Shown here: in pieces, positions 60,335 through 64,000 of the stretch
How the letters are laid out: the number at the start of each line of letters is the position of its first letter
Numbering within the stretch: the stretch's first letter is position 1
DNA from: Pararhodobacter sp. SW119
GTDB taxonomy: Bacteria; Pseudomonadota; Alphaproteobacteria; Rhodobacterales; Rhodobacteraceae
Direction: 5' to 3'
Assembly: GCF_017811755.1 (NCBI RefSeq)
Contig: NZ_JADDJF010000004.1
Location: 1-64,000, forward strand
DNA length: 64,000 nucleotides
Program-made: the position numbers and the translations under genes
Notes under the pieces: model-generated
What the model was told of the DNA's origin: nothing
Databases searched by the model: none
What the model saw: the letters and a program-made list of their open reading frames with translations, nothing else

Positions 60335-61402
60335 TCAGTCTGCGCCGCGCTCGGTCAGGATGCGTCCCACGAGCTGGGCGGTGTAATCCACGATCGGCAC
60401 GATCCGGCCATAGTTCAGCCGCGTGGGCCCAATCACGCCCACGGCACCGATGATCTTTCGATCAGCGTTCATATAAGGGGAAACGACCAAAGTGGAACCG
60501 GTCAGAGAAAAAAGCTTGTTCTCCGAGCCGATAAAGATGCGCACCCCCTCGCCCCGTTCGGCCAGTTCCAGAAACTCGGCGACGTCGCGCTTGCGTTCCA
60601 GATCGTCAAACAGTTCGCGAATGCGGTCCAGTTCTTCGGATGCGGCGCGGTCGAGCAGATTGGCGCGTCCGCGCACGATGAGACGCTCTTGCGCCTCGCC
60701 CTCATTCTCCCAAAGCGCCATGCCCCGGGAAACCAGATCGCTTGCCAGCACGTCGATCTGCTGCCTGTAGCGCTCGATCTCGACCCGCGCGCGTTCGCGT
60801 AGTTCCGACAGGGTCAGGCCGGGCGCCATCGCATTCAGGAAATTCGACGCTTCGCGCAACGCCGAGGGCGGAACCCCGGCCGGCGGGGTGAAGATCCGGT
60901 TTTCGACCTGCCCGTCGGCGAATACCAGCACGACAAGCGCGCGTTCCGTCGAAAGCGCGACGAATTCGATGTGCTTGATCGGCGCCTCGGTCTTCGGCGC
61001 GAGGACGAGGCTCGCCCCGCGCGTGAGAGAGGAAAGCGTCTCGCCGATGCGGTCGAGCGTTTCGCCCAGGCCATGATCGTTGCGCGCGCGTGTGGCGTCG
61101 AGCTTTTCGCGGTCGGTGGCGGACACGGGGTCGATTTCAAGCAATCCATCGACGAAGAGGCGCAGGCCCTGCTGCGTCGGCACCCGCCCGGACGAGATAT
61201 GCGGGCTCTCCAGCAGGCCCAGATACTCCAGATCCTGCATCACGTTGCGGATCGTCGCCGCGGACAGGTTTTCGGTCAATTCGCGCGTCAGAGTGCGGGA
61301 CCCGATCGGCGATCCGGTCGACAGGTAGGATTCGACCACCCTGCGAAAAACCTCGCGCGAGCGGTCGTTCATTTCGTTGAGCAGATTGCGATTCTCGGTC
61401 AT
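60335..61402 (-). CDS. hrcA: Heat-inducible transcription repressor HrcA
   Basis: A 355-residue repressor of class I heat-shock genes. The N-terminal winged helix has NDRSREVFRRVVESYLSTGS and IGSRTLTRELTENLSAATIR. The C-terminal region has LALEVLIF-like equivalents here read as VVSPYMNADRKIIGAVGVIG and GPTRLNYGRIVPIVDYTAQL. It normally binds CIRCE operators before groESL; no CIRCE is seen here. The next gene is grpE. Confidence 0.93.
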   Translation of the reverse strand: MTENRNLLNEMNDRSREVFRRVVESYLSTGSPIGSRTLTRELTENLSAATIRNVMQDLEYLGLLESPHISSGRVPTQQGLRLFVDGLLEIDPVSATDREKLDATRARNDHGLGETLDRIGETLSSLTRGASLVLAPKTEAPIKHIEFVALSTERALVVLVFADGQVENRIFTPPAGVPPSALREASNFLNAMAPGLTLSELRERARVEIERYRQQIDVLASDLVSRGMALWENEGEAQERLIVRGRANLLDRAASEELDRIRELFDDLERKRDVAEFLELAERGEGVRIFIGSENKLFSLTGSTLVVSPYMNADRKIIGAVGVIGPTRLNYGRIVPIVDYTAQLVGRILTERGAD

Positions 61403-61517: not shown

Positions 61518-62228
61518 ATGCGTCCGTCACGACGGGAACTGAATGAACTGCGGCCGGTGTCGATCGAAACCGGCGTGAACCGCCATGCCGAGGGGTCGTG
61601 CGTGATCCGGATCGGAAATACGCACGTGCTGTGCACCGCCTCGCTGGAAGATCGGACGCCGCCGTTTCTGAAGGGATCGGGCCTGGGATGGGTGACGGCG
61701 GAATACGGGATGCTGCCGCGGGCGACCAACACCCGCAATCGGCGCGAGGCCTCGACCGGAAAGCAGACCGGAAGAACCATTGAAATACAAAGGCTTATCG
61801 GAAGATCGCTTCGCGCCTGTGTTGATCGGGCGGCACTGGGCGAACGACAGATCACCATCGACTGCGACGTTCTTCAGGCCGACGGCGGCACCCGCTGCGC
61901 GGCGATCACCGGCGGATGGGTCGCGCTGCGGGTGGCGGTCAATCGCCTGATGGCGGCTGGCCTGGTGGTCAGTGACCCCCTGCTGGGTCACGTTACCGCG
62001 GTCTCTTGCGGGATCTACGCGGGCCAAGCGGTGCTCGACCTTGATTACGCCGAGGACAGCGAGGCCGGCGTCGACGGCAACTTCGTGCTTCTCGGTCAAG
62101 ATCGCTTGATCGAGGTTCAGATGTCCGCCGAGGGCGCCGCGTTCAGCCGCGCGCAGATGGATACGCTGCTGGAGCTTGCGCAACTGGGCTCCGAGTGCCT
62201 GATTGACGCACAGAGGGGCGCGTTGTGA
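61518..62228 (+). CDS. rph: Ribonuclease PH
   Basis: A 236-residue phosphorolytic exoribonuclease that trims tRNA 3' ends. It starts [20 protein letters not shown], with [40 protein letters not shown] and [20 protein letters not shown]-like run (here [13 protein letters not shown]), all hallmarks. GGAG lies before ATG 61518. It overlaps rdgB by GTGA. Confidence 0.95.
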
Positions 62229-62836
62229 GTCGCGGGCTGGAAGGCCGCAAGCTGGTCGTCGCCACGCACAACGCCGGCAAGATGGCCGAGATGCGCGCGC
62301 TATTCGGGCCGTACAACCTGGGTCTGGTTTCAGCCGCGGAGCTGGAGTTGCCAGAACCCGAAGAAACCGAAGCCAACTTTCTGGGCAATGCGCGGATCAA
62401 AGCCAACGCGGCAGCGCGCGCGACGGGCTTGGTCGCACTTGCAGATGACAGCGGGTTGGAGATCGACGCCCTTGACGGGGCGCCCGGTGTGTATACCGCG
62501 AACTGGGCGGAGGTGGGCGGAAAGCGGGATTTCGGGCACGCGATGCGGCGCACGCACGAGGAGCTGAGTCGCCGAGGGGCGGCAGAGCCCTGGCGCGCAA
62601 GGTTTCGCTGTACTCTCGTGCTGGCATGGCCCGATGGGCATGAGGAGGCGTTCGAGGGTTCGGTCGATGGCAGTTTGGTCTGGCCGATTCGTGGGAAGGA
62701 AGGGCATGGCTACGATCCGATGTTCCTGCCGGACGGATCGGCGCTGACCTTCGCAGAAATGCCCGAGACCGAGAAGAATCGCATCAGCCACCGCTCGCGC
62801 GCTTTCGCCGGCTTGATCCACGCTTGTTTCACGTGA
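62225..62836 (+). CDS. rdgB: Non-canonical purine NTP pyrophosphatase (RdgB/HAM1)
   Basis: A 203-residue enzyme that removes dITP/XTP from the nucleotide pool. It starts at GTG 62225 overlapping the rph stop. Motifs are [39 protein letters not shown] and [20 protein letters not shown], ending [14 protein letters not shown]. Its stop codon lies inside the parS site. Confidence 0.94.
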
Positions 62837-62840
62837 AACA
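62825..62840. other. parS centromere site (ParB binding), perfect
   Basis: TGTTTCACGTGAAACA is the full 16-bp palindromic chromosomal parS consensus and matches on both arms. It overlaps the last codons and the TGA stop of rdgB. ParB nucleates here and spreads. Such sites cluster near the origin in most bacteria. Confidence 0.92.
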
Positions 62841-62880
62841 AAGCAATCGTTCAGTCGCCGAAGGCTGGAAAGTTGCGGGA

Positions 62881-64000
62881 ATGTCGTCGGATGCCGCCGA
62901 GGGCGCGCCTGGAGACTTCGGCCTCTATGTGCATTGGCCGTTTTGTGAGGCGAAGTGCCCCTACTGCGATTTCAACAGCCATGTGCGCCGCGCTGTCGAT
63001 CACGACCGCTGGGCCGCCGCGTTCGAGAGGGAGATCGCGCGCATTCGGGACCTCGCGCCGGACCGCATCTTGGGTTCGATCTTCTTTGGCGGTGGCACGC
63101 CCTCGTTGATGTCGCCCGACTTGGTCCACCGGGTCATTGAAGCCGCGCGCCGCGCCTGGAGATGGCGCAACGACATCGAGATCACGCTGGAGGCAAACCC
63201 CTCGTCCGTCGAGGTCGCGCGCTTTCGGGGTTTTGTCAGGGCGGGCGTCAACCGTATTTCGATCGGCGTGCAGGCACTGAATGATCTCGACCTCAAGCGC
63301 CTTGGCCGTTTGCACTCGGCTGCCGAGGCGCTGGCCGCTATTGAGACGGCGCGGGCGGTGACGGACCGCGTCAGCTTCGATCTGATCTACGCGCGTCAGG
63401 ATCAAACGGCAGGGGACTGGCAGGACGAGCTGAAGCGCGCGCTTTCGATGGAGCCGAAACATCTTTCGCTTTATCAGTTGACGATCGAGGCGAACACAGC
63501 ATTCGGCGACAGGTACAAGGCGGGGAAGCTGCGGGGTTTGCCGGACGAAGACCGATCAGCGGAAATGTTCGAGACCACGCAGGCGCTTTGCGATGCCGCC
63601 GGTCTTCCTGCCTACGAAATATCGAATCACGCCAGGGTCGGCACAGAGGGGCGTCATAATCTGGTCTACTGGCGATATGGAGAATATGCCGGCGTTGGTC
63701 CCGGCGCCCACGGGCGTCTGATGTGGCAAGGCAAGCGCTACGCCACGCACGCCATCCCTTCGCCAGAAGAATGGCTGAAAAGCGCCGAAAACACCGGCGC
63801 ACTTCACGAAACGCGCACGGAACTGTCCGCCGAAGAACAGGGCGATGAGTATTTGATGATGAGCCTGCGGCTGCGTGAGGGGGCTTCGCTGTCTCGTTTC
63901 CAAGCGCTTTCAGGGAGCAACATGCCCGAAGCACGCATCGCGCGACTGATGAACGACGGCCTGCTTTGGCAAGAGGGTGACCGAATCGGCACGACAGATC
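62881..64000 (+). CDS. hemW: Radical SAM haem chaperone HemW (coproporphyrinogen III oxidase-like), 3'-truncated by window
   Basis: Starts at ATG 62881 and runs off the window (373 codons visible). The N-terminus LYVHWPFCEAKCPYCDFN has the radical SAM C-x3-C-x2-C cluster, followed by IFFGGGTPSLMSPDLVHRVI and ITLEANPSSVEVARFRGFVR, typical of HemW. Later LVYWRYGEYAGVGPGAHGR also fits. HemW delivers haem to targets rather than oxidising coproporphyrinogen. It begins 45 bp after rdgB. Confidence 0.92.
   Translation, partial: MSSDAAEGAPGDFGLYVHWPFCEAKCPYCDFNSHVRRAVDHDRWAAAFEREIARIRDLAPDRILGSIFFGGGTPSLMSPDLVHRVIEAARRAWRWRNDIEITLEANPSSVEVARFRGFVRAGVNRISIGVQALNDLDLKRLGRLHSAAEALAAIETARAVTDRVSFDLIYARQDQTAGDWQDELKRALSMEPKHLSLYQLTIEANTAFGDRYKAGKLRGLPDEDRSAEMFETTQALCDAAGLPAYEISNHARVGTEGRHNLVYWRYGEYAGVGPGAHGRLMWQGKRYATHAIPSPEEWLKSAENTGALHETRTELSAEEQGDEYLMMSLRLREGASLSRFQALSGSNMPEARIARLMNDGLLWQEGDRIGTTD

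Follow-up and report, generated by a model that had tools for sequence, protein, structure and literature searches.

A probable chromosomal parS site across the rdgB stop codon of Pararhodobacter sp. SW119, at a gene junction used repeatedly in relatives

What is a perfect copy of the parS palindrome doing across the stop codon of a housekeeping gene? The window, that is, the whole stretch of 64,000 nucleotides analysed (C127:1-64000, so that contig and window coordinates are identical), contains at 62825-62840 a 16-bp palindrome, TGTTTCACGTGAAACA, that matches the parS consensus at 16 of 16 positions. As the preliminary description had stated, it lies across the stop of rdgB, with the TGA at 62834-62836 inside the palindrome. 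No other match with up to three mismatches occurs in the window; dinucleotide shuffles of the window gave, at that threshold, a mean of 0.13 matches, with at least one match in 13 of 100 shuffles. The assembly (4,511,272 bases, 4.51 Mb, in 192 contigs) holds two exact copies, at C127:62825 and C127:66340, 3.5 kb apart and with parB and parA located between them. The second, at 66340-66355, is within the 5′ part of rsmG (minus strand), where it is read as V-S-R-E-T. Three further parS-like matches are scattered through the assembly, each with three mismatches; the reversed pattern, used as a control, gave three matches at up to three mismatches and none exact, and about 2e-4 exact copies per genome are expected from base composition (64% G+C; hand arithmetic). 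The preliminary description had proposed a genome search for more copies, in which many scattered ones would count against a parS. That outcome is absent: the copies are few and clustered by parAB, as is expected of a chromosomal parS, and the shuffles together with copy number and placement in the assembly lead us to reject chance occurrence of the 16-mer.

The site is embedded in a tight gene junction. Upstream, rph (RNase PH; 61518..62228, plus strand; PF01138 and PF03725 above cut-off) overlaps rdgB by four bases. The rdgB gene (XTP/dITP diphosphatase; 62225..62836, plus strand) matches TIGR00042 with 148.6 bits against a cut-off of 145.35, and the left 12 bases of parS are its last codons, TGT TTC ACG TGA, or C-F-T-stop. 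Since the site is used in the TGA-containing frame of the palindrome, it can be accommodated within a gene only at the gene's end. The stop takes part in a GTGA stop/start overlap within parS (62833..62836, plus strand), whose GTG is in the frame of hemW, the radical SAM heme chaperone gene (62833..64000, plus strand, cut by the window end, with its stop at contig position 64044). HemW was identified by TIGR00539 (287.3 bits against a cut-off of 205.4, in a scan begun at 62881). There are two candidate hemW starts in the window, the GTG at 62833 and an ATG at 62881, and the former is probably the start in this genome.

The neighbourhood is that of a chromosomal partition locus. From left to right, the order is hrcA(-), rph(+), rdgB(+), hemW(+), parB(-), parA(-), rsmG(-), mnmG(-), mnmE(-), rho(-), hemJ/UPF0093(-) and maf(+); the block from hrcA (60335..61402, minus strand, TIGR00331), its left edge, to rho recurs in relatives. 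The parB gene (64064 to about 64963, minus strand) matches TIGR00180 with 200.6 bits against a cut-off of 58.45, and also Caulobacter ParB. The adjoining parA (64965-65771, minus strand) was named from sequence and position; its best Pfam match is PF13614, and no NCBIfam profile was above cut-off among the 25 matches listed. Going right from the reported parS, it is 1.2 kb to the near end of parB and 2.9 kb to the far end of parA, so the prediction that parAB would lie within a short distance was borne out, and parA and parB are present in cis, as for a chromosomal parS.

The closest solved relative of the ParB is 6t1f (E 1.8e-75), which we take to be Caulobacter ParB. Residues Q162, G170, K171, S172, R173, N178, G201 and R204, which the available passages of PMC7383237 name as parS contacts, are identical to those of Caulobacter ParB at all eight positions, as numbered by hand along the 6t1f alignment with the labels of that paper. 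Noc and its site NBS resemble the pair described here in combining a ParB-family protein with a related palindrome. However, according to the same passages Noc has Q173, K179, K184 and R201, whereas positions 173, 179, 184 and 201 of the present ParB are R, L, N and G, that is, residues of the parS type with no lysine at 179 or 184. These residues rule out a Noc/NBS identity, as does TIGR04285, at 227.5 below its cut-off of 315.

The preliminary description also placed the right end of the window near oriC. On the 177-kb contig, the 300-bp stretch richest in DnaA boxes is at 71.35-71.65 kb, between hemJ and maf, with six boxes at up to two mismatches against a contig mean of 0.29 per 300 bp, and the hemJ-maf interval is also among the most A+T-rich stretches of the contig. 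Exact TTATCCACA does not occur on this contig, whose GC skew is too weak for placing an origin. In a near-complete member of the genus (G136), the hemJ-maf interval (576.25 kb) again has six boxes, joint richest in the 400 kb read, the tie being with a stretch at 488.6 kb. Over these 400 kb, cumulative GC skew is lowest at about 551.6 kb, some 20 kb from the rsmG parS at 571.5 kb. Elsewhere on that chromosome, 20-kb samples show positive skew between 0.9 and 1.9 Mb (1.7 Mb excepted) and almost none between 2.1 and 2.5 Mb; from 2.7 Mb onwards, as far as the contig end, and again at the contig start, the skew is negative (3.3 Mb excepted). We infer that oriC is the hemJ-maf interval, 8.6-8.8 kb to the right of the reported parS; thus, the earlier placement agrees with a predicted origin about 8.7 kb from the site. 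An origin at dnaA is disfavoured, dnaA being on a separate contig in this genome. In G136, dnaA, at 420 kb (C1:420206), and the predicted oriC (576250) are about 156 kb apart.

Judged from sequence, then, the site is very probably an ordinary, functional parS. We are highly confident, in particular, that it would be a functional chromosomal parS near oriC, which was added to sites in rsmG and mnmG, the mnmG site being lost later. ParB, encoded 1.2 kb away, would be expected to load at the rdgB-stop parS and at the rsmG copy and to spread across the par region, and ParA would move ParB, thereby segregating the origin, which is predicted about 8.7 kb from the site. The same parS would fix the end of RdgB as Phe-Thr-stop, and its GTG would be a potential start of the next gene. 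The arrangement is like that of Caulobacter crescentus in the type of 16-bp palindrome and in the distance from the (here predicted) origin: PMC5815017 describes a parS cluster about 8 kb from the origin, with at least five sites within 5 kb as against two exact sites here, and places its sites inside genes that are either essential or of high fitness cost. Its main text does not name gidA, gidB, mnmG, rsmG or trmE. In Rhodobacter sphaeroides, the origin has been imaged via ParB1, in passages of PMC6315104 that carry no parS coordinates.

What appears unusual, from the genomes compared, is the position at a stop/start junction, and this position is used repeatedly in relatives. Reportedly, the main survey of parS sites is that of Livny et al. 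2007. No paper describing a parS at the rdgB stop was recognised by title or start of abstract among the matches listed, a scope to which that survey does not belong, so a prior report is possible.

The relatives were drawn from an RdgB-similarity set (the best 80 of 576 loci), from L103-L138 (36 of 120 surveyed family genomes, those with coordinates listed), and from L203-L222 (20 stretches, 19 genomes), selected because spacing or copy number was odd and, in the case of L203-L207, because the spacing pointed to rdgB. As this choice was non-random, overall site frequencies are biased; by set, the rdgB site occurs in 2 of 58 RdgB-chosen, par-linked loci and in 2 of 34 loci of L103-L138. Left out were L023 (a duplicate of L148 with an identical junction), L134 (no rdgB or hemW match), L182 (a contig with nothing but rho, mnmE and part of mnmG), L216 (no block genes), L145, L131 and L215 (stretches lacking rdgB), G126 (nothing matching at up to two mismatches) and G131 (one two-mismatch match). 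Of the short context patterns for assigning sites to genes, a first set missed, in a local test, most rdgB sites and a third of the rsmG sites; the second set recovered all rdgB sites (17 of 17, counting the duplicate L023) but only 42 of 97 rsmG sites.

A 14-bp core of parS is present at the rdgB stop in 12 of 14 assayable members of the genus (18 genomes). It is missing from L149 and L181, and is therefore dispensable in those two. Outside the genus, 109 par-linked loci on the tree could be assayed and 9 have it, namely L047 (Roseinatronobacter sp. HJB301), L072, L125, L135 and L203-L207, and its register is identical in all carriers. It is absent from all 21 loci whose stretch lacks parB; most of these are named Rhizobiales or sphingomonads, and three (L085, L088, L100) end at most 3.1 kb from rdgB, so that parB may lie beyond the piece.

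Could the palindrome simply have arisen from the RdgB C-terminus and the next gene's start, with no role in segregation? The position does seem partly predisposed. Read in the register of the site, the 90 par-linked loci that lack it differ from the core by a mean of 7.8 and a median of 8 mismatches, against a mean of 10.6 at background positions, of which 9.9% do as well; in the 21 parB-less loci the corresponding means are 9.3 and 10.7. Two junctions in which the following gene is of the ridA type, L118 and L220, are a single core base short of a site. This explanation nevertheless leaves unaccounted for an exact site whose sole other exact copy is 3.5 kb away, by parAB, and a site kept in 12 of the 14 genus members while the codon before the core varies (of 16 site-bearing loci, 10 have Cys there and 6 have Arg). 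With the residues in the core fixed and the residue outside it variable, the pattern is the one predicted by a constraint at the DNA level. Moreover, the right half lies in hemW at some loci and in a ridA-like gene at others, with the letters unchanged: in L047, L125, L135, L203, L205 and L206 the parS GTG shares its frame with a RidA-like (PF01042) gene, and the RidA-like gene copy in L118 also matches PF01042. We consider a chance palindrome very improbable. The preliminary description had held that the C-terminal residues and stop of RdgB are constrained, and the comparison supports it. All 21 site-bearing RdgBs end F-T-TGA, because the core forces those letters in this register; among the 90 par-linked RdgBs without the site, Thr ends three, F-G or F-D is the commonest end (32), and TGA is the stop in 79.

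Alternatively, the palindrome might be mainly a translational or transcriptional element, coupling rdgB to hemW or acting as a ParB-dependent operator, with parS function incidental. The GTGA overlap within parS is what such coupling would use, and in seven genus loci (L139, L140, L143, L147, L148, L150, L151) the parS GTG is the only in-frame ATG, GTG or TTG before the HemW YxHWPF motif. In L146 the sole other in-frame start is a TTG immediately before that motif, and L141 and L142 have two possible hemW starts, as in the window. For the operator version, the accessible passages of PMC7022226 report that Pseudomonas aeruginosa ParB represses the promoters beside two intergenic parS sites. However, L072, L144, L204 and L207 keep the rdgB site with hemW in another frame, and the same letters are found at rsmG codons and at the mnmG start, where frame and context differ, which argues that the DNA is conserved rather than the coupling. 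We therefore find this explanation scarcely credible, and take the site to be very probably a parS in the first place.

The rsmG and mnmG sites put the rdgB site in perspective. The exact 16-mer occurs in 112 of 120 family genomes and the 14-bp core in 380 of 395 (hand tally), with no core in 15 assemblies (G020, G025, G053 and 12 more), one in 25, two in 297, three in 50, four in 5 and five in 3. In the loci read, the usual layout is two sites about 1.9 kb apart, one in rsmG near codon 18 and one at the mnmG start. These two are the usual sites of the family, and the rdgB-stop site is an extra. That the number tends to be close to two may reflect common descent and not selection on number. 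Like the rdgB site, the usual sites lie within genes with fixed codons. VSRE is found near the RsmG start in 95 of 107 loci, many of them selected for having parS, and is encoded by GTT TCA CGT GAA in 95 of 95, a choice for which the codon-frequency product is 0.0006 (from eleven nearby genes); in RdgB-chosen loci, where parS was not a criterion, VSRE is present in 49 of 57 with identical codons in 49 of 49. At the mnmG start, parS reads NTG-TTT-CAC-GTG-AAA, the NTG of 100 loci being GTG in 73, ATG in 13, TTG in 5 and CTG in 4, with no NTG in 5. The rsmG and mnmG sites use other reading frames, whereas the rdgB site uses the one containing TGA. Thus, a single palindrome can, via its three reading frames, dictate codons in three genes, and in these bacteria the VSRE of RsmG, the FHVK of the MnmG start and the terminal FT of RdgB may reflect the DNA site more than protein function.

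How did the extra site arise? A FastTree phylogeny of seven concatenated proteins was made for 126 loci (127 par-linked loci less one with too few genes), 123 of them assayable; some of its branches are weakly supported. With states coded for rdgB, rsmG and mnmG by exact 14-bp core, the fully assayable genus members are 110 in the window's genome and in L144, 011 in L149 and L181, and 111 in the other ten. In L145 the mnmG site is absent and rdgB is not assayable. Elsewhere, L072, L125 and L135 are 101, the rdgB site being present and the rsmG site gone. The pattern fits gain first and loss later, an order inferred from the states: in the window's lineage, an rdgB site would have been gained beside the rsmG and mnmG sites and the mnmG site subsequently lost. 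On the first tree, three of five losses of another site (hand count) fall in rdgB-site lineages, which account for 16% of branch length (binomial 0.033). The link of the rdgB site to loss of another site is weak, as the events were chosen with the tree already in view, and changes are more numerous on the larger one (rsmG 7, mnmG 4). Losses of the rsmG site also occur in loci without an exact rdgB core (L214, L220, L121).

It is tempting to propose that the rdgB stop is a recurrent birthplace of a replacement centromere, and we regard the case for this as evenly balanced. Independent gains of parS in several lineages of the family, with an already present Cys-Phe-x-TGA C-terminus and the next gene's start as sources, would give a temporary third site, after which an older one is lost (mnmG in the window's subclade, rsmG elsewhere). 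If this is true, gain followed by loss shifts a bacterial centromere along the chromosome, and the centromere lends stop and start codons to host genes. A different history, which leaves the function of the site untouched, is that one clade inherited the rdgB-stop site from its ancestor and lost it repeatedly. All 21 site-bearing tips do fall within one clade of 51 tips; still, a single gain needs 10 losses, against five parsimony changes, and the right halves of the hemW-type and ridA-type junctions come from different genes. We thus consider an ancestral site unlikely. The layouts of two, three and again two parS among relatives make turnover of a bacterial centromere directly testable.

Other departures from the usual layout were seen in the family. 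A second parS within rsmG, near codon 116 and about 349-363 bases from the start, is present in L117, L214, L220 and L221, and possibly in 14 of 50 three-site genomes by the 291-309-base spacing alone. The usual rsmG site is gone from L214 and L220 (seven core mismatches), and the inner site has apparently replaced it, to go by the sequences. L222 has an extra parS at rsmG codon 63, and two genomes of one genus (L211, L212) have one directly downstream of parB. Additional sites lie in hemW (L213, L214), parA (L121), mnmG (L103, L134) and mnmE (L134, L215). In five Rubellimicrobium loci (L068, L070, L073, L075, L079), the rsmG and rdgB sites are both missing and the stretch fetched has one parS or near-parS. 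L208, L209, L210 and L120 have extra cores with non-standard outer bases beyond maf, at about 4.9 kb from the mnmG site and on the opposite side of the predicted oriC. Finally, three members of the genus have in common a parS-like sequence with two mismatches, GGTTTCACGTGGAACA, located beyond rho at L148:17036, L181:12539 and L182:4255, in L148 past maf.
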